DNA from: Wenzhouxiangella limi
Lineage (GTDB): Bacteria; Pseudomonadota; Gammaproteobacteria; Xanthomonadales; Wenzhouxiangellaceae
Direction of reading: 5' to 3'
Length of the DNA: 64,000 bases
Assembly: GCF_010499265.1 (NCBI RefSeq)
Contig: NZ_JAAGSC010000031.1
Location: 186,001-250,000 of the forward strand
The position numbers were made by a program, and so were the translations under genes. The notes beneath the pieces were generated by a model that searched no databases, had not been told where the DNA came from, and saw only the letters and a list, made by a program, of their open reading frames with translations. Below, piece after piece: positions 29,454 through 44,798 of this stretch. Position 1 is the first letter of the stretch. Every line of letters starts with the position of its first letter.

Positions 29454-29766
29454 GCTTGCTCCTCTCCGGCACCGGGCTTGGCTACCTTGGTATGGAATGG
29501 CGTTTTTTTCCTGACTACCCCGCAGGGCCGATCGGGTCGGTAAGCAGCGCTTTTTAAATATCAGATCGATCTTGTGCACTGATCCGGCGCGATCGGAGCG
29601 GCTCACTCCAAAGCGAGATCAATTGTCCGTGAAAATTTTGTTTTGTCCTTTGATCTGCATCAATTCGTACTTATGTAGATAAGATGCATGAAAGACGAAT
29701 GATTGGAGCGTCGAACGATGAGGGACGGCTCCGGGGCCGGGTTGGCGTTTCGGCCAAGATCGACGC
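29454..29766. other. 313-base noncoding gap holding the SQR promoter
   Basis: No credible gene was found here. The gap lies between the SQR start and the stop of the small membrane protein gene 29767-30063. Its notable content is the FNR-type site at 29650-29663 and the -10-like hexamer at 29622-29627, giving a leader of about 160 bases before the SQR start codon. No clear terminator for the upstream cus-cytochrome operon is visible. Confidence 0.7.
29622..29663 (-). promoter_or_regulatory. FNR/Anr-type activator site and -10 of the SQR operon
   Basis: TTGAT-CTGC-ATCAA at 29650-29663 is a perfect match to the FNR/Anr consensus. On the minus strand GACAAT (29627-29622, four of six matches to TATAAT) has its centre 32 bases from the centre of the FNR site. 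This is the spacing of class II FNR promoters (site at -41.5, -10 at -9.5). The predicted start is at about 29615. Confidence 0.75.
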
Positions 29767-30613: not shown

Positions 30614-33600
30614 TCAGGCCCGTTCAGTTGCCCGTTCAGCTTCGGTCGCTTGCGGCAAACCGCGCCGGTGCCACAGATAGTACAGGGCCGGCATGACCAG
30701 CAGGGCAACCAGCCAGACCGTGAACACCCCGCCGACCATGGGCGCGGCGATGCGCTGCATGACTTCCGAGCCGGTGCCGGAAGAAAACATCACCGGCAGC
30801 AGACCGAGGAACACCGTGGTCTCGGTCATGGTGATGGGCCGAACCCGCTGGCAGGCGCCCTCGATGATGGCATGGCGCAGGTCGGCGCGGGTGAAGGTGC
30901 GCTCGCCGACCTGCTCGCGAAACCGCTGGTAGGCGTTGTTGAGATAGACCAGCATGATCACGCCGGTCTCGGCGGCCAGCCCGCCCAGGGCAATAAAGCC
31001 CACGGCCACGCCTACCGACATCTGGAAGTCCAGCAGCCACATCAGCCAGAACCCGCCGGCCAGCGACAGCGGCACCGTCACCAGCACCAGCGCGACCTCG
31101 AAGATCGTGCGGAAGATCATCATCAGCAGCACGACGATGATGGCAACCACCAGCGGGATCAGCACGCTCAGGCGCTCCCGGGCCCGCTCGATGTACTCGT
31201 ACTGGCCGGCAAAGGTAATGGAGTAACCGCCGGGCAGTTCCACCTGCTGGGCGATCTCGGCCTGGGCCATGGCCACCCAGCCACTCAGGTCGTCGTCGTT
31301 GATGTCGACGAAGACGAAACCGGCCGGACGGGTATTTTCGCTGCGGATCATGGCGGGTCCGGCGGCGATCTCGATCTCGGCGACCTCGCCCAGGGCGATA
31401 TGGGTACCCGACGGGGTGACCAGCGGCATCACGCGCAGCTGCTCGGGCGAGTCGCGCCAGTCGGCCAGATAACGCAGGTTGACCGGAAAACGCTCCAGGC
31501 CTTCGACTGTTTCGGTGACGTTGGCGCCGCCGACACCGAAGCGGATCAGATCGTGCAGGTCGGCGATGTTCATGCCGTGACGGGCCAGGGCGCGGCGATC
31601 GGGGCTGATCTCGATGTAGCGGCCCGAGGCCGGACGGTCGGCAAAGGCGCTGGTGGTCCCGGGCAGTTCGGCCGCCACCGCCTCGACCTGCTCGGCGATA
31701 TCCTGGATCACGCCCAGGTCGGGGCCCGAGATCTGGATGCCGATGTCGGTGCGGATCCCGGTCTGGAGCATGTCGATGCGGGTCTGGATGGGGAAAACCC
31801 AGGCGTTGGTCAGGCCGGGGAACTGCACCATCTCGTCGAGTTCGGCCATGATGTCGGCGGTGTCGATTCCGGGCCGCCACTGCGATCGCGGTTTCAGGGT
31901 GATGAAGGTTTCGATCATGGTCAGCGGCGCCGGATCGGTCGCCGTCTCGGCCCGCCCGGCCTTGCCCATGACGCGCTCGACCTCCGGGTGCGAGGCGATG
32001 ATGGCATCGGTCTGCTGCAGCAGCTCGCGCGCCTTGCCGGGGCTCAAGCCGGGCAGCGTGGTGGGCATGTACATCAGGTCGCCCTCGTCGAGTTCCGGCA
32101 TGAACTCCGTGCCCAGGCGCGAGGCCGGAAAGAGCATGGAGACGACCAGCGCCAGAGCCAGCACCGCGACGATCCAGGGATGGTTGCCGCTGAAGCGCGC
32201 CAGCGGTCGGTAGCCGGCTTCCAGCCAGCGCGCGAACGGGCTGCCTGTTCCCTTGCCCGATCCCAGGGATCCGACGAAATACCCCATCAGCACCGGCACC
32301 AGCGTGACCGAAAGACCGGCCGCGGCCGCCATGGCGTAGGTCTTGGTAAAGGCCAGCGGCGAGAACAGCCGGCCCTCCTGGGCCTGCAGGGCGAACACCG
32401 GCAGGAACGACAGGGCCACGATCAGCAGCGACACGAAGATCGGCTTGCCGACCTCGAGCGTGGCCTGGGTGATGGCCTCCCAGCGCTCCTCGCTGGTGCG
32501 CGGGGCGTCGCGTTCGATCCGGCGGTGGACGTTTTCGATCAGCACGATGGCGGCATCGACCATCACGCCGATGGAGATGATGATGCCGCCTAAGGACATG
32601 ATGTTGGCGTTGATGCCCTGGAAGTACATCACCAGGTAAGCGGCCAGCACCCCCAGCGGCAGGCTGATCAGCAGCACCAGCGAGGACTTCAGGTGCCATA
32701 GAAAAAGCGCGATCACCAGCACGACGATGGCGAACTCCAGGGCCAGCTTTTCCCACAGTGTGCGGATGGAGCGATCGATCAGCGGCGAGCGGTCGTAGGT
32801 CTCGACGATCTCCACGCCCTCGGGCAGGCCGGGGCGAAGATCGTCCAGGCGCTGCTGGATGGCGGCGATCACCGCGCGCGCGTTTTCGCCCTGGCGCATC
32901 ACCACGATGCCGGAGACGACCTCGCCCTGGCCGTTGAGATCGACGATGCCGCGTCGTGATTCGGGGCCGAAGCGGATCTCGGCGACCTGTTCCAGCAGGA
33001 CCGGCGTGCCGTCTTCCAGCACGCCGACCGGGATCTGGCTCAGATCCTCCAGCGACTGGATGTAGCCGCCGGCGCGCACCATGTACTCGGCCTCGGCCAG
33101 CTCGATCAGCGAACCGCCGGCCTCGGCGTTGCCGCGCCGGATCGCGCTTTCAAGCTGGCCCAGGGTCAAATCATAGGCGCGCAGGGCGTTGGGATCGACC
33201 GCGACCTGGTATTGCCGGACCATGCCGCCGGCGCTGGCGACCTCGGACACGCCGGGGACCGACTGCAGCTCGAACTTCAAAAACCAGTCCTGCAGGGCGC
33301 GCAGCTGGCTCAGATCGTGGTTGCCGCTGCGATCGACCAGGGCGTACTTGTAGACCCAGCCGACCCCGCTGGCGTCGGGCCCGAGCTCGGCGTTGACGCC
33401 CTCGGGCAGCCGGCCCTCGACCTGGCTCAGGTACTCCAGCACCCGGGCCCGGGCCCAGTACAGGTCGGTGCCGTCTTCGAACAGAACGTAGACGAAGGCG
33501 TCGCCGAACATCGAAAAGCCGCGCACGGTGTGCGCGCCCGGCACCGACATCAGCGCCGTGGTCAGCGGGTAGGTGACCTGGTCTTCGACCACCTGCGGCG

Positions 33601-33769
33601 CCTGTCCGGGGAAGGTGGCGCGCACGATGACCTGGGTATCGGTCAGGTCGGGGATGGCGTCGACCGGCGTGTTGCGCAGCGCCCAGAGACCGGCCACGGT
33701 CAGCACCACGGCCATCACCAGCACCAGCTGCCGGTTGGCGATCGACCATCGAATGATCGCGTCAATCAT
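30614..33769 (-). CDS. cusA: copper/silver efflux RND transporter CusA
   Basis: CusA is the inner-membrane proton-driven pump of the CusCBA tripartite Cu(I)/Ag(I) exporter. The 1051-residue product has the heavy-metal RND topology and the start MIDAIIRWSIANRQLV. All three methionines of the E. coli CusA binding site are recognisable: LMYMPTTLPG, PLTMIETFITLK and RIDMLQTGIRT. This favours copper/silver over zinc/cobalt/cadmium. The ATG at 33769 is preceded by GAGGAGC; codons further upstream lie in the repeat-bearing gap. It follows cusB after 122 bases that hold a dispersed repeat, and a cytochrome c gene starts 23 bases downstream. Confidence 0.94.
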   Translation of the reverse strand: MIDAIIRWSIANRQLVLVMAVVLTVAGLWALRNTPVDAIPDLTDTQVIVRATFPGQAPQVVEDQVTYPLTTALMSVPGAHTVRGFSMFGDAFVYVLFEDGTDLYWARARVLEYLSQVEGRLPEGVNAELGPDASGVGWVYKYALVDRSGNHDLSQLRALQDWFLKFELQSVPGVSEVASAGGMVRQYQVAVDPNALRAYDLTLGQLESAIRRGNAEAGGSLIELAEAEYMVRAGGYIQSLEDLSQIPVGVLEDGTPVLLEQVAEIRFGPESRRGIVDLNGQGEVVSGIVVMRQGENARAVIAAIQQRLDDLRPGLPEGVEIVETYDRSPLIDRSIRTLWEKLALEFAIVVLVIALFLWHLKSSLVLLISLPLGVLAAYLVMYFQGINANIMSLGGIIISIGVMVDAAIVLIENVHRRIERDAPRTSEERWEAITQATLEVGKPIFVSLLIVALSFLPVFALQAQEGRLFSPLAFTKTYAMAAAAGLSVTLVPVLMGYFVGSLGSGKGTGSPFARWLEAGYRPLARFSGNHPWIVAVLALALVVSMLFPASRLGTEFMPELDEGDLMYMPTTLPGLSPGKARELLQQTDAIIASHPEVERVMGKAGRAETATDPAPLTMIETFITLKPRSQWRPGIDTADIMAELDEMVQFPGLTNAWVFPIQTRIDMLQTGIRTDIGIQISGPDLGVIQDIAEQVEAVAAELPGTTSAFADRPASGRYIEISPDRRALARHGMNIADLHDLIRFGVGGANVTETVEGLERFPVNLRYLADWRDSPEQLRVMPLVTPSGTHIALGEVAEIEIAAGPAMIRSENTRPAGFVFVDINDDDLSGWVAMAQAEIAQQVELPGGYSITFAGQYEYIERARERLSVLIPLVVAIIVVLLMMIFRTIFEVALVLVTVPLSLAGGFWLMWLLDFQMSVGVAVGFIALGGLAAETGVIMLVYLNNAYQRFREQVGERTFTRADLRHAIIEGACQRVRPITMTETTVFLGLLPVMFSSGTGSEVMQRIAAPMVGGVFTVWLVALLVMPALYYLWHRRGLPQATEAERATERA

Positions 33770-33794
33770 GCCGCTGCTCCTCAGCAATTAATTT

Positions 33795-33886
33795 AACCGC
33801 AGATGAACGCAGATGAACGCAGATAAAGGAAGGCAAACGGCGCTGAAGGAAACATCCGTGTTCATCCGCGTTCATCCGCGGTTTAA
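33795..33886. repeat. GATGAACGC-type dispersed repeat forming an imperfect hairpin
   Basis: The left arm has AACCGCAGATGAACGC followed by further AGATGAACGC copies. The right arm, on the opposite strand, reads AACCGCGGATGAACGC with another copy. The two arms are imperfect inverted repeats over about 30 bases each, with about 28 bases between. It resembles a short, non-autonomous intergenic repeat seen in many proteobacteria and lies inside the cusB-cusA gap. Confidence 0.7.
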
Positions 33887-33891
33887 TCCAA

Positions 33892-35211
33892 TCAATGATT
33901 GTCATGGCTGGTCATCCGGCTGTGGCCGGCGCTGATGCTGGCCTCGGAATCGATCAGGAAGTGGCCCGAGACCACAACCCGCTCGCCTTCTTCCAGGCCG
34001 TGGATCACCTCGGTGTATTCACCCGACTCGAGGCCGGCGTGGACCAGGCGGACGCTGAATTGCTGCTCGTCGTCCTGCACGATCACGCGCTGCTCCTCGC
34101 CGGTGCGGATGATCGCCTCGCTGGGGACGTAGACGATGTCGTTCTTCGGCCCGGCCAGGATTGCCAGGCTGGCCCAGTCGCCGACCTTGAGCTCGCCGTC
34201 CGGATTGTCCAGCACGATACGGGCGCGGGCGGTGCGGGTACGGGGCGAAAGTTCCGGATAGACCAGATCGACGCGCCCGCGCAGGGTCTGGCCGGGATTG
34301 CTCACCTGCTGGATTCGAACCGGCTGGTCCTCGCCCAGCCAGTCGATCTGGCTGCCGAAGATGTCGGCGATCAGCCAGACCCGGCTGGGGTCGGCGATCT
34401 CGATCATGTCCAGCCCGGGTTGCACGAACATGCCGGCGCGGATGTTGAGCTCGGAGACATAGCCGTCGCGCTCGGCGTACCAGGGCACGTAGGTCAGGAC
34501 TTCGTTGCCGTCGCGGATGCGCTCGATGACCTCCGGCTGGACATCCAGCACCTCCAGCCGGCGTCGGGTGGCCCGGATCAGACTGTCGTTGCCGGCCCTG
34601 ACCGCCTGCAGGAACTCATCCTGGACGTTGACCAGTTCGGTGGCGTACAGGGTAAACAGGCGCTGGCCCGCACGCACCGGTTCGCCGACGCTGGCCACGT
34701 CCAGCTCGCCGATCCAGCCTTCGGTGCGCGGGTGCAGATGACTGAGCGCAGCCTGGTCGACTTCGAGCGTGCCGACGGCGCTGATGCGGCGGAAAAGGCG
34801 TCCGCGCTCGACCTCGGCGGTGCGCAGGTTCATCGCCTGCTGCACGGCCGGGTGAACGTTGACGGTGGTGGTGCCGCCGCCCTCGCGCTCGCGCTGGACC
34901 AGATCCATGCCGCAGATCGGGCAGCTGCCCGGACTGTCCTGGACAATCTGGGGGTGCATCGGGCAGACGTAGCGGGTTTCGGTCTGGTCGCCGAGCATGC
35001 GATCGACCGCGCTGTCTTGCTCTGATGCATGGTCGTGTTCCGAGTGGTCGTGATCGGCGTGGTCCTCGGAATCGCTTGCCTGCGCTGATTCCGCGTGTTC
35101 CGAAGCATCGTGCTCCTCGTGGCCCTCGGGGTCGGCACAGCCGGCCAGGATCAGCATCAGAAGCAGGGCCAGAGTGGACAACACCGGCCGGCTGTAGAGG
35201 TTCTTGGTCAT
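33892..35211 (-). CDS. cusB: CusB-type periplasmic adaptor with histidine-rich and heavy-metal-binding N-terminus
   Basis: CusB links the pump CusA to the outer-membrane channel. The 439-residue protein has a lipoprotein signal (LILAGC, Cys25). A segment with many His, Asp and Glu residues follows (about residues 30-66). Next is a heavy-metal-binding domain, [20 protein letters not shown] at 81-100, with paired Cys and Met. The adaptor hairpin, lipoyl and beta-barrel domains follow. The front half probably captures or hands over metal, replacing a separate CusF-like chaperone. The ATG at 35211 overlaps the cusC stop by four bases. Confidence 0.92.
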
Positions 35212-36464
35212 GGCAGTTCCTTGTCGGTCAGGCTGGCAATGCGGGCAATCGCGCCCAGCTGGCGGCGCCGGGTGTCGATCAGGTCAAGGTCGATTTCAAG
35301 CTGGCGCAGGCGCGCACGGACCAGCTCGTCGAAGCTGGCCCGATCGCTCTCGTAGGCCGAGAGTGTCGCGTCCACGGTGTCCTGGGCGCGCGGCAGGATG
35401 CGCTGTTCCAGCAGTTCCCGGCTCTCGGCCAGGCGTGCCTGCAGCGCCTGCTGCCGGGCCAGTTCGCCGCTCAGGCGCTGCAGGATCAACTGCGCCTGCG
35501 CCTGCTGCGCATCGCGTTCGGCCAGCGCGGCATCGACCCGGCGGTCCTGGCGGTCGTCGGTAAACAGCGGCAGGCTGATCGTGGCCATGGCAAAGAGTTT
35601 GTCGGACATGCGCCGGCCGCTGGGGTCCTTGCCCCGCTGATGACCGTAGCCGGCTTCCAGCATCCACTGCGGGCGATAGGCCTGGCGGGCCAGATCGGCG
35701 GCGACCTCTTCGGCCTCCACCCGGATGCCGGCAGCGATCAGCTCGGGATGCCGGGAGAGTTGCGCGGGGATATCGTCACCTGGCGATTCCTGAAGCGACC
35801 ACTGCGGCAGGCGAGGGTCGGCCGCGCCTGGTGTCAAGGGACCGATCCAGCGCTCGAGCCGGGCGCGGGCTTCGTCCATCGAGGTCTGGGCATCGACCCG
35901 CCGGCGCTCGAGCAGCGCCAGCTCCAGCAGCGCCTGGGACTCGTCCTGCAGGCGACCGCTCCCGGCCTGAAACCGCCGCTGGGTAATGCTCACCAGCTGA
36001 CCGAGCTGCTCGAGCATGGCGTCGACCTGATCGGCCGAGGCGCGCGCGCTGACCCAGTCCAGCCAGGCCAGGCGGGTCTGCAACGCGACCTCGAGTTCGC
36101 GCGCCCGCAGGTCGGCGGCCACGGCCCGCGCCCGGGCGCTGTTGCGGTCGCCGGCAAGGCGGCGTGAATCGCCGGCCGGAAACCGCTGGCGCACTCCGAT
36201 CCGGTACATCGTCATCATGTCGGCTGACAGCGGGTCGTCGATCGGCAGGCCTTCGGCGCCGATGGTTACCTCCGGGTCGGGCAGGGCGCTTTCGGCAACG
36301 GCGAGATGATCGAAGGCCCGGGCCTTGCGGTCCAGCTCGCGCAGGCCGGCGTCGCGAGCCAGCGCCTGTTCGACCGCCGACTCGATCGACAGGGCCAGAG
36401 CGCTGAGCGGCTGGCACAGTGCGCCGAGCACGACGAGCCCGCTGAAAACAGATTTGAACGACAT
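35208..36464 (-). CDS. cusC: TolC/CusC-family outer-membrane efflux channel
   Basis: The 418-residue protein has a signal peptide ([20 protein letters not shown], cleaved near ALA) and two repeated helical outer-membrane efflux domains, rich in long Ala/Leu/Glu/Gln helices (about residues 30-220 and 225-415). It gives the exit duct of the tripartite exporter. Unlike E. coli CusC there is no clear lipobox, so it may not be lipidated. It is first in the cusC-cusB-cusA order; the stop overlaps the cusB ATG by four bases. The CopL-like gene lies 84 bases upstream on the same strand. Confidence 0.88.
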
Positions 36465-36548
36465 GCAGCTCTCCCGAAGAGTTCTTTATAGGCCATTGTG
36501 CTACCCCGTCATACGAGGGCGTTACACGCGCGTGGATACGCGCCGGAC

Positions 36549-36938
36549 TCAGGCTTGAGACTGGGGAGGTCGCAGCAGGCGTTCGGGAGATGGAGACGGA
36601 TCGAAGTGGCGGGTCGTCGCGTTGGCCGCGCTGTGGTCGGGGCAGGCTTCGCTGCCCAATGCGCCGACCGGACCCGGCACCGGCGCGCTGCAGCCGCAGC
36701 CGCAATCGAAAAAGCAGCAGCCGGCGTCGTCCGGCGCGTTTTCCGATGGCGCATCGCCCTGGTTATCAGCCTGGGCGGCGTGGAACGGACAATCGCTGCC
36801 GTCTGTGGCGGGGTTTTCCGATTCAGCGGGCGCGCCGGCGACTGCGCTGCCGTGGGCGGGGCAGGCGTGGGCGGGCAGCCCGGCGCAGGCCAGCACGAGG
36901 CCGAGCAGAAGCACAAAGAGGCGATAGTGCCGAGTCAT
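36549..36938 (-). CDS. CopL-like Cys/His-rich metal-responsive secreted protein
   Basis: The 129-residue protein has a signal peptide (RLFVLLLGLVLACAGLPAHA) and a mature part rich in cysteine and histidine: CPAHGSAV, DCPFHAAQAD, CCFFDCGCGCSAPVPG and CPDHSAANA. This composition and its place directly before cusCBA resemble the CopL family of Xanthomonadaceae, which is linked to copper-responsive expression of copper resistance genes. It could bind Cu(I) in the periplasm. The ATG at 36938 is chosen over a GTG at 36956. The strong Cys/His bias within a normal coding frame argues for a real gene. Function is inferred. Confidence 0.65.
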   Translation of the reverse strand: MTRHYRLFVLLLGLVLACAGLPAHACPAHGSAVAGAPAESENPATDGSDCPFHAAQADNQGDAPSENAPDDAGCCFFDCGCGCSAPVPGPVGALGSEACPDHSAANATTRHFDPSPSPERLLRPPQSQA

Positions 36939-36982
36939 TGGCGGAGACGCTACCACAGTCGCTGTGCCCAGTCCATCGCCTT

Positions 36983-38614
36983 CTATGGCGGCAGGGCGTT
37001 CAGCACCCGCTGGATCTCTTCGGCGGTCAGGGCCCGGGCGCCGGCCCGGGTGGTGCGGCCTGAGCGGCCTTCCAGGTCAACGAACGCATCGGCCGGCAGG
37101 CCATCCTGCAGATCTGCCTGGTTGGGGTTGAAGACCCACTCGTCGCCGTTGTGTTCCAGCGTGCCGCGACCCAGGCCCAGCGCCTGGCTGGAGCGATGGC
37201 AATCCTCGCAGCTTCTGGCCGGTCCGATGGTGTGCGGACTCAAGGGCGCGAAATAGCGGCGGAACTGGGTCTGTTCCCAGTCGGGATGGTCGATGGTGCG
37301 AATCATGCCGGGCACGAAGGTCACGATGTGGCCCTCGCTATCCACGCCCATGGGCGGGGCGTCGTTGTGCACGTTCCAGCGCTGGTCCGACCACGACCCG
37401 GGCGTGAACTCGCGCGCGACGTGGTCAAACTGTTCCTTTTCGGGGTCGTAGTCCATGTGGCAGCCGTGGCACTGCGGCGCCCACTGGGTGTGGCAGGTCG
37501 AGCAGGTCAACCGATCATGGTGGCCGTCGTCGGGATGGCTGGCCTCGGTCAGCGGCGGAATCGGCAGGCTGCCGCCGTTGACCTTGCGGTGCAGGATCTT
37601 GCTGCCGTCGGCGCGCAGTTCGATATGCCACAGGGGCGTGCTGCGACGTTCGGTGGTCAGGAAGCGCCGCTGCGGATCACGCTCGAACGGCAGGCGGCCG
37701 AGCTGGCCACGCAGATCCGACGGCCAATCGGCTTCGGTGATGCGCGGCTGGCGGTTGTCGTGACAGTCGGCGCACTGGATATCGACCGCATCCGAGCCGT
37801 GGTTGAACTGGCCGGTTGGCCCCATGACGTCGCGGGTGGTGTGGCAGTCGATGCAGGCCAGCCCGGCCTGGTGGTGGACGTCGCGATGGGTGGATTCCAC
37901 CAGTCGGCCGTCGGGGAGACGGCCCAGCGGGTTGGGGTGGTTCTCGTCGAGGACATGAGCGTCGACTTCGGCGAGGCCGGCGTAGTTCAGGGCGATTCGG
38001 CCCGAACGCGAGTGGCAGCCCGAGCAGCTCTGATCGCTGACCGTGGCCGACAGGGTCACGTGTCCCTGTCCTCGCTGGGTCTCGTGGGGTGCGTGGCAGG
38101 CCAGGCAGCCGCCGCCGCGGCTGCCGATCGGATCCTCGGTAGTCATCTGGTGCTGGGGCTGGCCGAGATGGCAGCTGGCGCAGTGCTTGCGCAGAATCGA
38201 ATCGGCGGGCGTGTGTCCCAGGCCGTCGAGGCGGCCATCGCCCTGGTCGGGTCGGTCCTGCTCGCCCACGGTATGGCGGGTCACGTTGACCATGCCGCGG
38301 CCGCTGTGCATCAAACCCTCGACCACGTGTCGGGTTTCGTCGACGTGGCAGGTGCCGCAGGTCTCGGCCGCGTTGTCCAGCCAGCCCGGCGATGAGATCA
38401 TGCCGGCGTGCGCATCCTCGCGGTTAGCGGCGTCGACCTCGCCCAGGTGGCAGGCCTGGCACTGCTGGGCCAGAAAGGCGTGCGGGTCGGACTCGTCCAG
38501 GGCATGCGGCTGATGACAGTCCAGGCACGCGGCGCTGGCCGGCAAAACGCCGGCCAGGACGAAAAAGCCGGCCCAGAGGACCGGCTTGAAGAACGCTGTC
38601 ACGATGCTGTCCAA
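36983..38614 (-). CDS. undecahaem (11 CxxCH) periplasmic cytochrome c
   Basis: The 543-residue secreted protein has a signal peptide ending near ASA (residue 28) and eleven CxxCH haem motifs: CLDCH, CQACH, CGTCH, CASCH, CLACH, CSGCH, CIDCH, CADCH, CSTCH, CHGCH and CEDCH. Nine fall in the first 380 residues and the last near residue 475. Many extra histidines could be distal ligands. It does not look like NrfA (no CxxCK) or a standard octahaem reductase. It starts fourteen bases after the rhodanese-like gene and follows the PsrABC-like genes, so it probably exchanges electrons with that complex or with extracellular sulfur. The start is a TTG at 38614 with no clear ribosome binding site; a GTG at 38602 is an alternative. 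Confidence 0.85.
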   Translation of the reverse strand: MDSIVTAFFKPVLWAGFFVLAGVLPASAACLDCHQPHALDESDPHAFLAQQCQACHLGEVDAANREDAHAGMISSPGWLDNAAETCGTCHVDETRHVVEGLMHSGRGMVNVTRHTVGEQDRPDQGDGRLDGLGHTPADSILRKHCASCHLGQPQHQMTTEDPIGSRGGGCLACHAPHETQRGQGHVTLSATVSDQSCSGCHSRSGRIALNYAGLAEVDAHVLDENHPNPLGRLPDGRLVESTHRDVHHQAGLACIDCHTTRDVMGPTGQFNHGSDAVDIQCADCHDNRQPRITEADWPSDLRGQLGRLPFERDPQRRFLTTERRSTPLWHIELRADGSKILHRKVNGGSLPIPPLTEASHPDDGHHDRLTCSTCHTQWAPQCHGCHMDYDPEKEQFDHVAREFTPGSWSDQRWNVHNDAPPMGVDSEGHIVTFVPGMIRTIDHPDWEQTQFRRYFAPLSPHTIGPARSCEDCHRSSQALGLGRGTLEHNGDEWVFNPNQADLQDGLPADAFVDLEGRSGRTTRAGARALTAEEIQRVLNALPP

Positions 38615-38628
38615 ACTTGAAATCGCTG

Positions 38629-39405
38629 TCAGCAGCCCTCGCCGATGATCAGGCGGCGCGGTTCTTCTTCCGCTGTCTCTTCTTCCTCGACCACGGCCAG
38701 TTCGGGCCGCTCGATGTCGACGCCGACGCCCAGGTGCAGTCCCAGACCGTGGGGGTCGCTGGCGCTGGCCGGCGCCGACTCGGCGGGTTCCGCTGACGGA
38801 GCCGACATGCCCAGGGCGGCGGAAGCGCCGCCGCCGGCCGGCGTGACGCCGGGAGAATAGCCATCAGGCGCTTCGGCGCTATCGCCGTGGAAGAACTCGA
38901 CAAAAGCCTGGCGCTCGCTGTCGCCGAGCGGGTCGCTGACCCCGGCGAGCTCGACGGCCGGGTCGCTGGTATAGGCGAACCAGTCGTCGAAATCTCCGGC
39001 CAGTGCCAGGGCGTTGATGCCGGCCATCTGCAGAACCGCGCTGGCCTGGCTGGCGGCGATGCCGGTCTCGCCATACAGGACGATCTGACGTCCGCCGGCG
39101 ACTTCTTCAGCCTTTTCGGGCCGAACGATTTCCATGGCCCCGACATTGACCGCGCCGGGAATGTGGAAGGCTTCGAAAGCCGCGGCATCTCGAATGTCGA
39201 CCAGCCGGAAGTCGCCTTGATCCTCCACCACCCGCCGGGACAGCTCGGGGATCGAAATCTGCGCCTCACCCCGGGCAATCGCCGAACCGACCCGTTCGAC
39301 GTCGTATTGCATCGGATCGCCGCTCTGACCACAGGCCGTGGTCAGGGCAACGGTGGCACCCAGCAGGGCGACGATACGCCAAGACTTCCGCGACACAGCT
39401 TGCAT
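38629..39405 (-). CDS. rhodanese-fold lipoprotein-like protein with Cys-less active site and C-terminal cysteine
   Basis: The 258-residue protein has an exported N-terminus with a weak lipobox (LTTAC, Cys25) and a rhodanese domain at about residues 50-150 (FRLVDIRDAAAFEAFHIPGA). The active-site loop reads VLYGETGIAAS, with Gly112 where the persulfide cysteine should be, so it cannot be a normal sulfurtransferase. A low-complexity Ala/Pro/Gly/Ser linker and an acidic segment lead to the C-terminus IIGEGC, whose last residue, Cys258, is the only other cysteine. I infer a possible mobile thiol arm. It lies between the NrfD-like gene and the undecahaem cytochrome. AGAGG precedes the ATG at 39405. 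Confidence 0.75.
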   Translation of the reverse strand: MQAVSRKSWRIVALLGATVALTTACGQSGDPMQYDVERVGSAIARGEAQISIPELSRRVVEDQGDFRLVDIRDAAAFEAFHIPGAVNVGAMEIVRPEKAEEVAGGRQIVLYGETGIAASQASAVLQMAGINALALAGDFDDWFAYTSDPAVELAGVSDPLGDSERQAFVEFFHGDSAEAPDGYSPGVTPAGGGASAALGMSAPSAEPAESAPASASDPHGLGLHLGVGVDIERPELAVVEEEETAEEEPRRLIIGEGC

Positions 39406-39462
39406 GGAATAAACCTCTTCATTAGGTTGGACTAAATCGAGAGTTTATCCCAAAACAAACCA

Positions 39463-40464
39463 TTAATGCATGCCAAGTAGATCTAATAGTGCCGGGTTGT
39501 AGGTGTTGACGTAGTCGATATATCCGGACACCTGGCCCAGGTCGACGAACAGCTGGCGCAGCATATAGGCGCCGTAGAGCACCAGGACCGGACTGATGAT
39601 CATCCAGGCCGGCCGTTTGCCGCGCAAACCAAACGCCTCGATGACCAGCGGAACCAGCAGTCCGGGGATGACGAAGAACAGCCAGAACAGCTGGGTATAG
39701 TCACCGCCGAAAATCGGGTGCAGAGACTCGATCTGCTGCTGCGAGCCGTTGGCAAGGTTGGCCAGGGTCAGTGCCAGCAACAGGACTTTGAAGGCCAACA
39801 GTCCGAACAGCGTACCGGTAAAGAGCCGGCGCTCTTCAGCGTTGCGCGAGCCGATAAGCACCACCGCTGCGGCGGTTGCCAGGCCGGAGACCAGGAACAA
39901 TGGCGCCATCAGCCCGCTGCTGGAGAAAGGCCGGGCGTCCATCGAGGTCATCAGCGTGCCGGTGTAGAAGGCGATGATCACGCCGAGTACGACGCTGGCC
40001 CAGGCGACCGGGCGCTTGATCCGCTCGGCCCAGTTCAGCGCCCATCGACCGATGCCGAACTTCTCGACCGGCGAGGCCAGGGACGGGTAGCCCTTGCGCA
40101 GTCCCTGCAGGGTCAGCAGCAGGATGGCCAGAATCACCAGCTGCAGCAGCCAGGCGCCCCACGACATCACCGCGGTCGGCACGAAAGCGCCGAAGAACCG
40201 CCAGAAAACGATTTTGTGGGTCAGCTTCAGAAACAGGAAGGTCATGGCCAGACCGATCGAAATCAGCCCGATCAAGGGCAGCCGCTTGGCGGTAAAGTCG
40301 AAGGTCTCTTCCTTGCCGCGCAGGATGACCAGCGCAGCAAAGATCAGCGCACCGGCGGTCAGGCCGACGAGGAACAGGTCGGCGATGACCTGCCAGCCCC
40401 AGACGCTGACGGTCGGGTCGATCTTGTAGTTGTCTCTAACGGTAATCAGGATTTCTTCACGCAT
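39463..40464 (-). CDS. NrfD/PsrC-like membrane subunit of a molybdenum oxidoreductase complex
   Basis: The 333-residue protein is highly hydrophobic with eight or more transmembrane helices (for example VIADLFLVGLTAGALIFAAL and WGAWLLQLVILAILLL), typical of the NrfD/PsrC quinol-binding family. It should connect the iron-sulfur subunit to the quinone pool. The start MREEILITVRDNYK is placed 25 bases after the ferredoxin gene. The order catalytic subunit, 4Fe-4S subunit, NrfD subunit is the PsrABC/PhsABC order. Length matches PsrC-type subunits. Residues for proton coupling cannot be judged by eye. Confidence 0.88.
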   Translation of the reverse strand: MREEILITVRDNYKIDPTVSVWGWQVIADLFLVGLTAGALIFAALVILRGKEETFDFTAKRLPLIGLISIGLAMTFLFLKLTHKIVFWRFFGAFVPTAVMSWGAWLLQLVILAILLLTLQGLRKGYPSLASPVEKFGIGRWALNWAERIKRPVAWASVVLGVIIAFYTGTLMTSMDARPFSSSGLMAPLFLVSGLATAAAVVLIGSRNAEERRLFTGTLFGLLAFKVLLLALTLANLANGSQQQIESLHPIFGGDYTQLFWLFFVIPGLLVPLVIEAFGLRGKRPAWMIISPVLVLYGAYMLRQLFVDLGQVSGYIDYVNTYNPALLDLLGMH

Positions 40465-40489
40465 GGTATTGATTCCGGCTGTAAGGGCA

Positions 40490-41029
40490 TCAGGTCAGGT
40501 AATAGACTTGCGGTTCGTTACCCGTCTCTTCGTGCATGGCCTTGTGCTCGCGCGTGGCGAGCAGGCGGCTGACGGTCGAGTTGGGATCGTCGAGCACGCC
40601 GAAATGCATGCAGTTGGTCGGGCAGGAAGCGACGCAGGCCGGGTCCAGGCCCTGCTCGACGCGGTGATGGCAGAACGTGCACTTGCTGACATAACCTTCG
40701 TTCATGATCAGGCGGGCGTCGTAGGGGCAGGCCGCGATACAGGCCCCGCAACCGGTGCATTTGTCCGGGTCGACGAGCACGATGTTGGTGCCTTCCCAGC
40801 GGTAGGTCGCCGCCGTGGGGCAGGCATACAGGCAGGTCGGCTTGGTGCAGTGATTGCAGCGCTCCGAACGGAACTCGGTCTTTAAGTCCGGGTAGGTGCC
40901 GGTGGTCGCCTCGACGACCCAGTCGCGGTTGAGTCCGGCCGGTACCTTGTTTTCGGTCTTGCAGGCAACGACGCAGTCGCCGCAGCCGATGCAGAGTTTG
41001 GTGTCGATGACCATCGCGTAGCGGATCAT
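40490..41029 (-). CDS. four-cluster 4Fe-4S electron-transfer subunit (PsrB/PhsB-like)
   Basis: The 179-residue protein binds four [4Fe-4S] clusters, judged from four Cys groups: CIGCGDCVVAC, CNHCTKPTCLYAC, CTGCGACIAAC, and CTFCHHR with a later CVASC. This is the standard DMSO-reductase-family B subunit, carrying electrons between the NrfD-type anchor and the molybdenum subunit. It has no signal peptide of its own and would be exported with the Tat-bearing catalytic subunit. Its start overlaps the catalytic gene's stop by four bases (ATGA), so the two are translationally coupled. Confidence 0.93.
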   Translation of the reverse strand: MIRYAMVIDTKLCIGCGDCVVACKTENKVPAGLNRDWVVEATTGTYPDLKTEFRSERCNHCTKPTCLYACPTAATYRWEGTNIVLVDPDKCTGCGACIAACPYDARLIMNEGYVSKCTFCHHRVEQGLDPACVASCPTNCMHFGVLDDPNSTVSRLLATREHKAMHEETGNEPQVYYLT

Positions 41030-43218
41030 GCGCTTGCCTCCTCGGGAATCAGGGTTACGAAATTGCCGCGCATGCCGGTGCTGCCTGCGATCGGGTCGAC
41101 CAGGATCCGGGTGATCAGGCCCTGGTCGTCGGCACCGCGGCCGTTGGCCAGGCTGAGATCAGCCGAGTTGTGGCCGAAACCGTGGGCCATGAACAGCGAG
41201 TCGGGGCGGATGCGTTCGGTGACCCGCACGCGAACGGCGTTGCTTTCTACGCCGTCCTGGTTTTTCAGGCGCACGTACTGGCCGTTGCTGACCTGGAACG
41301 TGCTTGCGGCCACCGGGTGAATCCAGACCGTGTTTTCCGGCATCAGCTCGAACAGCTGCGGGTTGTTGATGGTGCGGCCAAAGGTATGCGCCGGGGCGCG
41401 GCCGTAGTTGAGGTGCAGGAACTCGCCCTCGGGCTTGCTCGGCGGCGGGGTAAACACCGGCAGCGGGTCGTGCCCGAAATCGGCCAGCATCTGCGAGTAC
41501 AGCTCAATCTTGCCGGAGCTGGTGCGGAAGCTGCGGTTCTCGCCGGGGGCGAAGTACTTCGGCGTCTGGCGCGGGAATTTCTTGACCCCGATGCGCCGCA
41601 TTTCTTCAAACGAACTGCCGACCTGGCGCAGCTGCCAGTCCAGCTCTTCGCTGTAGTCGTCCCAGGGGAACCAGTCGCCCAGATCAAGGCGTTCGGCGAT
41701 CTGCTTGGCGATCCACCAGCCGGGCTTGGAGTCGTACTTGGGCTCGAAAGCCGGCACCGACACGGCCAGCGACGGCTCGCGCTCGGGGCTGTTGCGCATG
41801 GGATCCAGGCGCTCCAGGTAGGTGCACTCGGGCAGGATCACGTCGGCGTAGCCGGTGATGCCGTACGGCATGGTGTCGACGACGACGAGCAAGTCGAGAT
41901 CCTGCGAGGCCTGGGCCAGCTTCTCGGTGACCCCGGGAATGGTGTGGCCGAGATTGCTGCTGTAGACGAACCAGCCCTTGAAGTAGGCGTCTTCGCCGAT
42001 CGAGGCGTCGATGAACTTCTGCGAAATGCCGGACGGGGCCACCGGAAAATCGCCCTGCACCTCGTCGCGCCAGTTGGTCGCGGGCGCGGGTGGGTCCGGC
42101 AGCGGGAAGCTGGGGATCGAGACGTTTTCCTGCTCGTAGTAGCCGCCTTCGCGACCCCAGGCGCCGAGCAGCGCGGTGAGGATGGCGATGGCGCGCTCGC
42201 GTTGGGTGTCGTCGCCGTACCAGGTCACGTGACGGCCTGGGTGAACCAGCGTGGCCGGGGCGGCCATGGCCATTTCGCGGGCGGTGGTGCGGATCACGTC
42301 GGGCCGGATACCGGTCTGCCCGTAGGCCCATTCGGGGGTGTAGGGCTGGACGTGAGCCTTGAGTTCATCGAAGCCCGATGCGTAGCGGGCGATGTAGTCG
42401 GCGTCGTAGAGATTTTCGTTGATCAGGACGTTCATCCACGCCAGCATGAGGGCGATATCGGTGCCGGGCTTGATCGGCAGCCAGTGCTTGGACTTGCCGG
42501 CGGCGACCGAGAAGCGCGGGTCGACGGTGATCATGGTGGCGCCCTTGCGCACCGCCTCGATCCAGGTCTGGACCTGGCCGTTGTGCAGGTTCTCGCCCAA
42601 GTGCGAGCCGATCAGCACGATGCAGCGCGAGTTTTCCATATCGGTGCGGTCGGGCGAGCCGACGCCTTCACCGTAGGTCAGGGCAAACGCGACTTCGCGC
42701 GGACCCCGGCACTGGGCGTAAGAGGGCGCCGTGTAGGCCGGCGAGCCGAATGCGCGCAGGGTGCGGCGGAAGAAGTTGCCGCCGGAACCGTGGGAGAACA
42801 GGCACAGGCGGTCCTGGCCGTGCTCTTCCTTGATCTTGTTCATTTTTTCAGCGATGTAATCGAAAGCCTCGTCCCACGACACCGGCTTGAAGCGCTGGCG
42901 CCCGTTTTCGGTCACGCGAAGCATCGGCTGCTTGAGGCGGTCCGGGTCGGTATACATGCCCAGGCCGGCATCGCCGCGGGTGCAGAAGCGACCGTTGGAG
43001 TGCAGATCGTCGGGGTTGCCCTCAATTTTCCAGGGCTGGCCGTTTTCGACCGATACGGTGCCGGCGCAGCGCCAGAAACAGACGTTGCACAAGACCGGCG
43101 TTTGTACCACTTCGCCTTCTCCGGGCAGCGGCCGTGCCTTGCAGCCGGTCAGCGTAAGGGGCGCCATGGCGGCGGCACCGGCCGTTGCGGATAGCTGGAT
43201 GAACTCGCGTCTTTTCAT
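41026..43218 (-). CDS. molybdopterin oxidoreductase catalytic subunit, PsrA/PhsA-like
   Basis: The 730-residue protein has a twin-arginine signal (KRREFIQLS, residues 2-10), so it acts in the periplasm. An N-terminal [4Fe-4S] site is held by Cys44, Cys47, Cys51 and Cys79. Cys170 in SYAQCRGPRE sits where the molybdenum ligand is in the polysulfide and thiosulfate reductase group. A molybdopterin-dinucleotide-binding domain fills the C-terminal 120 residues (HLNYGRAPAHTFGRTINNPQ). Likely substrates are polysulfide, thiosulfate or another sulfur oxyanion; arsenate, tetrathionate and nitrate are less likely from size and context. Surrounding rhodanese genes support sulfur. The complex could run as reductase or as oxidase. 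Confidence 0.88.
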   Translation of the reverse strand: MKRREFIQLSATAGAAAMAPLTLTGCKARPLPGEGEVVQTPVLCNVCFWRCAGTVSVENGQPWKIEGNPDDLHSNGRFCTRGDAGLGMYTDPDRLKQPMLRVTENGRQRFKPVSWDEAFDYIAEKMNKIKEEHGQDRLCLFSHGSGGNFFRRTLRAFGSPAYTAPSYAQCRGPREVAFALTYGEGVGSPDRTDMENSRCIVLIGSHLGENLHNGQVQTWIEAVRKGATMITVDPRFSVAAGKSKHWLPIKPGTDIALMLAWMNVLINENLYDADYIARYASGFDELKAHVQPYTPEWAYGQTGIRPDVIRTTAREMAMAAPATLVHPGRHVTWYGDDTQRERAIAILTALLGAWGREGGYYEQENVSIPSFPLPDPPAPATNWRDEVQGDFPVAPSGISQKFIDASIGEDAYFKGWFVYSSNLGHTIPGVTEKLAQASQDLDLLVVVDTMPYGITGYADVILPECTYLERLDPMRNSPEREPSLAVSVPAFEPKYDSKPGWWIAKQIAERLDLGDWFPWDDYSEELDWQLRQVGSSFEEMRRIGVKKFPRQTPKYFAPGENRSFRTSSGKIELYSQMLADFGHDPLPVFTPPPSKPEGEFLHLNYGRAPAHTFGRTINNPQLFELMPENTVWIHPVAASTFQVSNGQYVRLKNQDGVESNAVRVRVTERIRPDSLFMAHGFGHNSADLSLANGRGADDQGLITRILVDPIAGSTGMRGNFVTLIPEEASA

Positions 43219-43250
43219 GGGGACTCTCAGGTGTTTCGTGTTGCGGAAGG

Positions 43251-43278
43251 ATCGGCGGGGCAGCGTGGCCCCGCCGAT
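43251..43278 (-). promoter_or_regulatory. stem-loop between the triple-rhodanese gene and the psrA-like gene
   Basis: ATCGGCGGGGC (43251-43261) pairs perfectly with GCCCCGCCGAT (43268-43278) over a six-base loop. No T-tract follows on the minus strand, so it is more likely an mRNA processing or stability element, which can set different protein levels, than a terminator. Confidence 0.6.
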
Positions 43279-43290
43279 GCTGCGGGTCGG

Positions 43291-44616
43291 CTACAGAATC
43301 TCGTAGTCGCCGTCGGAGTCGATTTCAACTTCCTCGTTCAGGAAGCTGGCCTCGAAGCCTTCATCGTTGAGGACCTGGTAGGCCATCTGGGCGCGTACGC
43401 CCGTGGAGCAGTGGACGATGACGGGCTTGTCCTTGCTCAACTGGCCGAGCTGGTCTTCCAGGTTGTCCAGGCCGATGTGAACCGCGCCGGGAATCATGCC
43501 GGCTGCGACTTCCTCGTCGGAACGCACATCGAGAATCTGGACCTCATCGGTCGGGAACGACATGGCCGCGAACTCGGCCGGCTTGATGGCGCCGGGGGCG
43601 AGCTGGCGCTCGTAGTTGATCGACAGCGACAGGCCGTTGCTTTCGGTCGGCAGGTCAGCCGAGGTCCAGCCGTCGAAGCCGTCCTTGATCACGCTCACGC
43701 CGCTGTAGCCCCAGCTGCGCAGTTCCTTGAACGCGGTCAGCAGGTCCTGGTCAACGTGGCTGTCGGCGTACAGGATGATCGGCGCCTTCTTGTCGGCCAC
43801 GCCGGGCAGGCGGGCAGGCTGCTGCTGGTCGATGAAGCGCTGGGTCATGGCCTGGAAGGTCGAGGCCTCCATGGAAACAGCCGTTGGGATGTGTTCCATG
43901 TTCGCGATCGCCGGGCTGCGGGTGTCGATCACCACGTGGCCCGGGTTCAGGCGCTCGGCCAGCCACTCGGGGTCGGTGTGCATCGGCAGCTGCTTTTTTT
44001 TCCAGGTCGGGGCGCCGTCCTGGTAGCCCTTGACGTTGGTGTAGCCGGCTTCGATGGCGATGTCGACGGCCTGGCCGGTGTACGGGCAGGTCGGTCCGCC
44101 GCAGTAGAAGATCACCAGCTCGGACTTGTCTTCCGGCAGCACACCCAGCACGGCATCCGCGCCGTCGCCGGGAAAGGCGTTAATCGAAGACGGGATGGTC
44201 GCGGCGAGGAAGCGGCGAGCCGGGCGCGTATCGACCAGCAGGTAGGGTGCATCGGCGGTCATGATGGCCAATAGTTCATCGGTGTCGATTTCGACGCCAT
44301 CGGGCAGGCCGAAAACGATCTTTTCGATCGTGCTGGCCGGGCTGCCGGGGACGTAGGTAACTTCCAGCAGTTCGTTGCCGCCGACATCGGCGATGCCGTC
44401 GGCGCCGAGGAACTGGGTGTCGGAATCGAAGCGCACGACCACCGGGTCCTGACCGCTGACGTTGAGCTGGATGGTCTCGGCCTTGCGCGAGATATCCATG
44501 ACCCGGCCCTTGACGGTTTCAGTGTCCTGCGCCAGAGCGCTGAAGGGGGCGAGGAAGGCAAGCAGCAGGCCGATTCGACCCAGGTTGCCTAAAGTGTTGA
44601 AGAATTTGGACTTCAT
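43291..44616 (-). CDS. exported triple-rhodanese-domain protein
   Basis: The 441-residue product has a signal peptide (residues 1-30, ending ALAQ) and a small beta-rich domain to about residue 105 (VKGRVMDISRKAETIQLNV). Three rhodanese domains follow. Domain 1 (about 115-215) has Cys172 and Cys177 in FYCGGPTCPYT. Domain 2 (about 220-325) has LYADSH and no cysteine. Domain 3 (about 345-435) has Cys403 in HCSTGVRAQ. It probably accepts and relays sulfane sulfur in the periplasm, feeding the adjacent molybdenum complex. The ATG at 44616 has GGAG upstream. An FNR-like site and -10 lie about 140-180 bases upstream. Confidence 0.85.
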   Translation of the reverse strand: MKSKFFNTLGNLGRIGLLLAFLAPFSALAQDTETVKGRVMDISRKAETIQLNVSGQDPVVVRFDSDTQFLGADGIADVGGNELLEVTYVPGSPASTIEKIVFGLPDGVEIDTDELLAIMTADAPYLLVDTRPARRFLAATIPSSINAFPGDGADAVLGVLPEDKSELVIFYCGGPTCPYTGQAVDIAIEAGYTNVKGYQDGAPTWKKKQLPMHTDPEWLAERLNPGHVVIDTRSPAIANMEHIPTAVSMEASTFQAMTQRFIDQQQPARLPGVADKKAPIILYADSHVDQDLLTAFKELRSWGYSGVSVIKDGFDGWTSADLPTESNGLSLSINYERQLAPGAIKPAEFAAMSFPTDEVQILDVRSDEEVAAGMIPGAVHIGLDNLEDQLGQLSKDKPVIVHCSTGVRAQMAYQVLNDEGFEASFLNEEVEIDSDGDYEIL

Positions 44617-44756
44617 GTTCAAGTACTCCTTGATCTCTTCGTTGTAGTGAGTCTTTACCCGTATGGCCTGCAGTTCCAAGGCTTTGATCCGATTCGCTTG
44701 ATCTGCAGTCCCTGCATGAGCCTGACGGGTGCGGTCACCCTCAATCTCATGGCAGC

Positions 44757-44798
44757 ATCCTATGCATCTCCGGATTGGAAGTAATTGACGTGCATCAA
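44757..44798 (-). promoter_or_regulatory. FNR-like site and -10 upstream of the triple-rhodanese gene
   Basis: TTGAC-GTGC-ATCAA at 44785-44798 differs from the FNR consensus at one base. On the minus strand TAGGAT (44762-44757) has its centre exactly 32 bases from the site centre, as in the SQR promoter. The predicted start is at about 44750. The same site could also serve the plus-strand aminotransferase. Confidence 0.65.

Follow-up and report, generated by a model that had tools for sequence, protein, structure and literature searches.

Six neighbouring genes in a 64,000-nucleotide stretch of Wenzhouxiangella limi DNA, called the window here, are a real conserved module. Its strongest feature is a cysteine at the C-terminal end of a rhodanese-fold protein, RhoC, a residue that the sequence-only reading of this DNA had mentioned only in passing. 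The recurring pairing of a molybdenum enzyme with this Cys-tailed rhodanese suggests a swinging-arm hand-over of sulfur. The best explanation, which we hold with moderate confidence, is that the module encodes a quinone-linked, Psr-like sulfane-sulfur reductase, regulated by low oxygen and fed by a covalent swinging-arm carrier.

Organization of the locus

All six open reading frames lie on the minus strand and run in one direction (window positions 36983-44616), in the order rho3, A, B, nrfD, rhoC, undecahaem cytochrome, as had been reported. The first gene, rho3 (43291-44616), is taken to start at the ATG at 44616; the mechanical ORF begins at a TTG at 44679. Three Pfam PF00581 stretches bear out the earlier description of an exported triple-rhodanese protein, and by inspection the N-terminus resembles a signal peptide. 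The A gene (41026-43218, minus) shares four bases with B (40490-41029, minus), confirming the overlap noted before. From Pfam and NCBIfam matches, B is a PsrB/NrfC-type ferredoxin-like subunit, and C (NrfD/PsrC; 39463-40464, minus; PF03916, 117 bits) is the likely quinone-interacting membrane subunit. By homology, A, B and C are a molybdenum enzyme with its Fe-S and NrfD subunits. Next come rhoC (38629-39405, minus), encoding a probable lipoprotein, and the ExtM-related c-type cytochrome gene (36983-38614, minus; start codon uncertain), in whose product we count the expected 11 CxxCH motifs and no other cysteine.

The label "FNR-linked" in the sequence-only reading has a basis. The FNR/CRP-type palindrome TTGACGTGCATCAA lies at 44785-44798 (no strand assigned), about 175 bp upstream of rho3. 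A second, perfect FNR-type palindrome, TTGATCTGCATCAA (29650-29663, no strand assigned), stands upstream of a gene outside the operon (28089-29453, minus) for a Tat-exported protein resembling type III sulfide:quinone reductase (SQR; NF049943, 199 bits, under the cut-off of 525). These are the only two TTGAN6TCAA sites in the 64 kb, where 0.32 would be expected, and similar palindromes precede the module in other genomes. Such sites suggest use at low oxygen.

Recurrence across genomes

Is the gene set a chance assembly? The sequence-only reading had staked its case on co-occurrence in other genomes, and when we ran that comparison the case survived. A-B-C is kept in 89 A-subunit loci from the Gammaproteobacteria, Acetobacteraceae, Bacteroidota, Neomarinimicrobiota and Calditrichota, which is at least four phyla, with B in 86, C in 82 and a rhodanese/YeeE cluster in 74; in most of them a rhodanese-fold protein follows downstream. 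Strains of Marinifilum, Labilibaculum, Fulvivirga and Marinoscillum (L053, L056, L057, L078) are among the cultured bacteria that have the module. The cytochrome is found in 33 of the 89, despite contigs that end early, and is absent from many loci. The full set of six families is present in the genome of the window and in G005, G013, L034, L035 and G283/L023; in G437 it is spread over contigs. Because the set recurs across genomes, it is not due to chance. Among the best 80 loci of the contig scan, none was titled Bacillota.

The catalytic complex

The A subunit has the features of the PsrA/PhsA/SrrA lineage of the DMSO-reductase (MopB) family: a twin-arginine leader, a single Fe4S4 site (CxxCxxxC...C), a cysteine predicted to coordinate molybdenum, and B and NrfD-type C partners. 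It matches Thermus thermophilus PsrA (PDB 2vpw) with an E value of 7e-191, and its Cys170, within an AQCRG motif, aligns with the molybdenum ligand of that protein. Membership in PhsA was rejected, as A scores 469 bits with the NCBIfam PhsA model, under the cut-off of 694; a plasmid search gave only PhsA-like genes among the matches listed, at about 33% identity. In a quick tree the module's A clade (64 rows) leaves out 2vpw, the PsrA used for comparison, with an SH-aLRT value of 95, so that the catalytic subunit does not group with the characterised T. thermophilus enzyme. The clade has its own residues on either side of the molybdenum-ligand cysteine, Q169 and R171 (AQCR), and C199 in place of a tyrosine. 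In a sister A clade (44-46% identity) and in Psr/Phs outgroups, the downstream rhodanese and the YeeE pair are absent.

The Cys-tailed rhodanese

As the sequence-only reading had it, RhoC is a rhodanese that lacks the active-site cysteine and ends in another. Its only cysteines are Cys25, likely of a lipobox, and Cys258, the last residue (codon at 38632-38634, minus); Gly112 occupies the active-site position of its one rhodanese domain. The active-site cysteine is missing from all 44 aligned downstream rhodaneses, which have S, G, A or D instead. The last or penultimate residue is a cysteine in 83 of 89 complete downstream copies; a few complete copies lack the tail. By comparison, a C-terminal cysteine is found in 4 of 41 other rhodaneses of the same loci, and in 27 of 1344 other ORFs (2%). 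A second sample of Bacteroidota genomes gave a Cys-tailed rhodanese in 13 of 14 loci. In the AF2 model of RhoC the rhodanese core has pLDDT values mostly above 90, and residues 181-258 form a low-confidence coil, the putatively disordered tail; Foldseek matches of the model are rhodaneses. We set aside the idea that the tail cysteine belongs to a membrane-anchoring C-terminal sorting signal, because the model of the window's RhoC has no terminal helix.

By inspection, Rho3 retains a canonical active-site cysteine only in domain 3 (C424 of the 462-aa ORF); domain 1 has C193-GGPT-C198 (CGGPTC), and domain 2 has no such cysteine. At other loci a split YeeE transporter stands in the place of rho3. 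The two halves belong to the PF04143 sulfur transporters, and each has one near-invariant cysteine (61/61 and 56/57). The window's own genome yielded no PF04143 protein, though such proteins lie beside the module elsewhere; YeeE is therefore not essential to the module.

A proposed mechanism

How might these proteins act together? We propose that a periplasmic complex of the Psr/Phs/Srr kind works on protein-held sulfane sulfur. RhoC, probably tethered to the membrane by its lipobox or a signal anchor, has kept the rhodanese fold and lost the catalytic cysteine; its tail cysteine most likely binds sulfane sulfur in persulfide form and carries it on its flexible tail to the molybdenum site, where the sulfur would be reduced to sulfide with electrons from quinol. 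The carrier is most likely loaded by Rho3 here and, at other loci, by the split YeeE/YedE pair; the sulfur may come from thiosulfate, from polysulfide or from whatever the periplasmic SQR-like protein produces. The least certain step concerns the undecahaem protein, which might be an ExtM-family electron carrier with the quinone pool or the complex on one side and other partners, periplasmic or outer, on the other. The earlier proposal of a periplasmic sulfur relay to the molybdenum enzyme is thus kept as the best reading; its substrate, its direction and the chemistry of its carrier are what we infer. The further electron route, from NrfD through the undecahaem protein to solid sulfur, found no support and is not adopted, because the operon contains no outer-membrane conduit; in many Bacteroidota, besides, the cytochrome comes with a cytochrome b and a Rieske protein of its own.

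The statement that no named system has the full set proved only partly right, as Sud-Psr, haloarchaeal rhodanese-Psr operons, Srr and Ext each cover parts of it. Sud works through its rhodanese active-site cysteine, the residue that RhoC has lost in favour of a tail cysteine. In Wolinella succinogenes this periplasmic sulfur carrier presents polysulfide to PsrABC (PMC2628731), a precedent that supports the sulfane-sulfur carrier reading; that system likewise has a Tat-exported molybdenum subunit, an Fe-S subunit and an NrfD anchor. RhoC would play a Sud-like role by a new design. Haloarchaeal Psr operons also include sulfurtransferase/rhodanese genes and are induced by sulfur, PsrA and a co-transcribed rhodanese being abundant in growth on sulfur; the passages that describe them mention no undecahaem cytochrome (PMC6176080, PMC5437934).

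DsrC carries sulfur intermediates on a reactive cysteine that sits at the tip of a flexible arm or close to it. SoxY does the same (PMC11237559). RhoC differs from both SoxYZ and DsrC in fold, its predicted structure being that of a rhodanese whose active site has been lost. A study of ergothioneine synthase shows a molybdenum enzyme to which protein persulfides relay sulfur (PMC9516567); this is an analogy only, since that relay starts at a cysteine desulfurase. More tentatively than the reductase itself, we suggest a new class of covalent sulfur carrier: a dead rhodanese with a reactive cysteine at the tip of a disordered tail, dedicated to one Psr-like clade whose AQCRG site evolved for protein-bound sulfur, with an ExtM-type cytochrome as second redox partner.

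Alternative explanations

Might the substrate be selenium? The module could respire selenite (or tellurite), as a reductase that corresponds in Gram-negative bacteria to Srr and is joined to an Ext-type cytochrome; the C-terminal cysteine would then bind selenium intermediates. SrrABCDEF of Bacillus selenitireducens MLS10 has a Tat catalytic subunit of about 80 kDa, a small Fe-S subunit, an anchor and two rhodanese-domain proteins (PMC12481199), to which, going by the published description, A-B-C, Rho3 and RhoC correspond. The cytochrome's best NCBIfam match is NF040943, ExtM of the selenite/tellurite operon, and the Geobacter sulfurreducens cluster ExtHIJKLMNOPQS joins a rhodanese-like protein with ExtM (PMC5877670); many Bacteroidota versions of the cytochrome are fused to an ExtP-like cytochrome b with a Rieske gene adjoining, and some gammaproteobacterial loci carry an ExtKL-like cytochrome. 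The published Ext list has no Psr-type molybdenum enzyme, and its cytochrome has 12 haems against 11 here; all 11 sites are unchanged among 27 homologues, some with as little as 33% identity. Against the selenite reading, the ExtM score of 195.8 bits is far under the curated cut-off of 800. The Srr operon includes a chaperone gene (SrrD), of which Pfam found none among our six, and lists no multihaem cytochrome. The YeeE partners and the SQR-like gene also indicate sulfur, and we consider selenite reduction unlikely. Searches with the cytochrome itself gave no PDB sequence match, and no Foldseek match with E <= 0.001 (model mean pLDDT 72).

A second alternative is that the complex runs oxidatively: A-B-C would oxidise sulfide, or sulfane sulfur on the carrier, with quinone as acceptor, and electrons would be handed on by the undecahaem cytochrome. 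Since Psr-type enzymes can run in reverse, as already proposed for Psr (PMC8359478), the direction of the reaction is not readable from the sequence. Many gammaproteobacterial relatives come from sulfur-oxidiser groups (Thioalkalivibrio, Chromatiaceae, Thiohalobacter), the window has its SQR-like gene, the genome has a haem-copper oxidase, and the Bacteroidota cytochrome with cytochrome b beside Rieske is a quinol-oxidising arrangement. Against this, the FNR-type sites point to low oxygen, several relatives come from anaerobic Bacteroidota groups, and the genome lacks dsrA and gave no SoxB match over the cut-off, for which reason a Sox or Dsr pathway was also set aside. Oxidative running seems to us improbable.

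The tail cysteine could have a role other than sulfur carriage. It might bind metal, tether RhoC to A-B-C through a disulfide, for which a lone cysteine on a flexible tail would serve, or assist assembly or maturation of the molybdenum enzyme; among the loci compared RhoC is confined to the module's A clade, as expected of a dedicated assembly factor. Sulfur handling is nevertheless indicated by the rhodanese fold, by the YeeE partners and by fusions of a YeeE half to a Cys-tailed rhodanese (L105 and L145), and some loci have two Cys-tailed rhodaneses, so that we regard such roles as quite doubtful. Finally, it is very improbable that this is a plain Phs/Psr operon whose neighbours have nothing to do with it: A-B-C by itself resembles PsrABC/PhsABC, but the neighbours are kept across phyla and missing from the sister clade, the active-site motif sets the A clade apart, and the tail cysteine is present in 83/89 copies.

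Implications

The substrate of Psr/Phs-type enzymes is not deducible from sequence (PMC8359478, PMC7887784, PMC13047784), and yet it is from such genes that uncultured groups of wide distribution, for example the Marinimicrobia, have been credited with polysulfide respiration (PMC5688066). If the carrier reading is true, SoxY and DsrC would be joined by a further swinging-arm carrier, and this would explain how insoluble or scarce sulfane sulfur could be channelled to a molybdenum site. The clade, defined by its active-site motif and its dedicated Cys-tailed carrier, provides a sequence marker.

A conserved operon

The window (G000:C23:186001-250000) belongs to a 3.35-Mb gammaproteobacterial genome, and the operon is transcribed from its minus strand in the order rho3, A, B, NrfD/C, rhoC and undecahaem cytochrome. 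By Pfam and NCBIfam models, the exported protein rho3 (43291-44616, minus strand, as are all genes that follow) has three rhodanese stretches; the catalytic subunit A (41026-43218) is a molybdopterin oxidoreductase nearest to PhsA, scoring 469 bits against an NCBIfam cut-off of 694; B (40490-41029), whose gene overlaps that of A by the 4 bases first noticed in the sequence-only reading, is a multi-cluster Fe-S subunit; the membrane subunit C (39463-40464) is NrfD; and rhoC (38629-39405) has one rhodanese domain. Among curated models the cytochrome (36983-38614) is matched best by ExtM, from the selenite/tellurite operon of Geobacter, with 195.8 bits where the NCBIfam model requires 800. Directly 3' of it lie CusABC-like RND efflux genes and a CopL-like small protein (30614-36956, minus strand); CopL and CusC-like genes and part of CusB occupy the same place in G013 (L008), a genome of the same genus. 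Another PhsA-like Mo complex (A, Fe-S and NrfD; L010:1380-5469, G000:C23 about 386379-390468) is present in the window's own genome; its A has only about 29% in common with the A of the operon.

The six-gene set is a conserved module. In whole-genome searches A has orthologues of 62-81% identity in scattered Gammaproteobacteria, the next matches falling to 37%. A named-genome scan with A found loci in Gammaproteobacteria, Acetobacteraceae, Bacteroidota, Neomarinimicrobiota and Calditrichota among the best 80 of 567 confirmed candidates, so that this breadth is a lower bound. When the neighbours of 89 A loci were clustered (a few, such as L020/L033 and L021/L036, carry two identifiers and were counted under each), B was present at 86, C at 82, a rhodanese/YeeE cluster at 74, and the 11-haem cytochrome at 33, many contigs ending early. 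The full complement of six families is present in the window genome and in G005, G013, L034, L035 and G283/L023; in G437 it is spread over two contigs. The co-occurrence proposed from the sequence alone is thus borne out in several genomes, but the exact gene order is found only within the window's genus.

The A clade

A quick maximum-likelihood tree unites the module A subunits (64 rows, SH-aLRT 95) and leaves outside them T. thermophilus PsrA, PhsA and a group 44-46% identical to the A of Marinifilum. Loci whose A is at least about 51% identical to Marinifilum A have a split YeeE pair and a Cys-tailed rhodanese; the 44-46% group (L156-L161) has neither, nor do the Psr/Phs outgroup loci L026, L027, L109, L140 and L141. 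The clade has eleven nearly fixed columns whose residue none of the eight outgroups shares; on either side of the Mo ligand, Cys170, stand Q169 and R171, and C199 is found in place of a Tyr. The invariant Arg81, His143, Cys170 and Arg329, positions which we take to matter in catalysis, align with R81, H145, C173 and R332 of T. thermophilus PsrA. The sister clade L156-L161, from Bacteroidota genomes, keeps A-B-C and offers a useful contrast for biochemistry.

The cysteine-tailed rhodanese

The most distinctive part of the module is rhoC. Rhodanese ORFs were collected with a domain-only model, tail excluded, on the A strand within 5 kb downstream of A. Cys is the last or penultimate residue in 83 of 89 complete ORFs, against 4/41 other rhodaneses at the same loci and 27/1344 other ORFs; the six without it are extra copies or short ORFs. 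In none of the 44 sequences aligned is the active-site residue a Cys: S, G, A or D stands there instead. These rows had been picked for the tail Cys, so that the evidence for the tail is the 83/89 count and not the invariance of that Cys among them. These counts uphold the early description of a rhodanese fold with no active-site Cys and a C-terminal Cys. Bacteroidota copies usually end in KKKxxGGC, gammaproteobacterial ones in GEGC or EESC, and those of Acetobacteraceae in LNGMCG. In a second Bacteroidota sample (whole genomes drawn by A, possibly overlapping the first locus set), 13 of the 14 loci with the module have the tail, and the fourteenth looks frameshifted. The tail extends a median of 32 residues beyond the domain; AlphaFold2 gives rhoC a confident rhodanese core, whose structural matches are rhodaneses, and low-confidence coil at residues 181-258. 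In nine genomes the best match to the full-length tailed model is at the operon, other rhodaneses matching mainly the domain.

How much of this is new? The pairing of a rhodanese with an enzyme of the Psr type has been described before, and to that extent the suggestion that no named system has the full set is too strong. Full-text searches confined to an open-access library gave no description of three features, namely the Cys-tailed rhodanese with its dead active site, the confinement of that protein to a single A clade with the AQCR motif, and the ExtM-type undecahaem partner.

Alternative partners

The module of Bacteroidota, Neomarinimicrobiota and some of the Proteobacteria comes with two half-size PF04143 (YeeE/YedE) membrane proteins; one Cys in each half is near-invariant (61/61 and 56/57). 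In characterised cases YeeE imports thiosulfate (PMC13047784, which cites structural work). Proteobacterial loci have rho3 (12), YeeE (12) or neither (9), and never both; the two exclude each other there, in counts that are not phylogenetically independent. No PF04143 protein was found in the window's own genome. A YeeE half is fused to a Cys-tailed rhodanese at L105:4133-5326 (minus strand) and L145:9991-11376 (plus strand), ending KGGCS and KREGC, and a YeeE half at L021/L036:4520-5440 (plus strand) has its own C-terminal tail, ending EGC.

Cytochromes vary also. Many in Bacteroidota are of about 900 residues; the one that was scanned begins with a cytochrome b of ExtP-like type, and next to its gene lies one for a Rieske protein. 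An ExtKL-like pentahaem cytochrome lies upstream of rho3 in L023, L028, L032, L034 and L077, followed in most of them by a tetrahaem protein, an Fe-S subunit and an NrfD-size ORF, confirmed as NrfD in L032.

A proposed sulfur relay

We propose that rho3 or YeeE would load rhoC, whose terminal Cys would carry sulfane sulfur to the Mo site, where A-B-C would reduce it with quinol. There is precedent in Sud, which presents polysulfide to Wolinella PsrABC (PMC2628731), and in haloarchaea, where the PsrA most abundant during sulfur respiration shares a transcript with a rhodanese (PMC5437934). An analogy, and no more, is the Mo enzyme MES, whose DMSO-reductase-family site receives a persulfide borne on a protein (PMC9516567). 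A-B-C may instead run in the reverse direction, since Psr-type enzymes may do so (PMC8359478). The window's own genome has a haem-copper oxidase, and in it we found no dsrA and no SoxB above cut-off. Selenite may also be the substrate, an alternative considered because of the B. selenitireducens reductase Srr and the Geobacter operon Ext (PMC12481199, PMC5877670).

FNR-type sites

The link to FNR read from the sequence is matched by FNR-type palindromes. No more than two of the form TTGAN6TCAA occur in the 64 kb, where 0.32 are expected (at least two in 3/100 shuffles), one upstream of rho3 and the other, perfect, at 29650-29663, about 200 bp upstream of the gene for a Tat-exported, type III SQR-like protein (28089-29453, minus strand), which is probably co-regulated with the module. 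Across loci, the 2.4 kb before A make up 12.6% of the sequence and hold 20 of the 66 such sites; in several Acetobacteraceae-type loci the site stands 71-114 bases before A.
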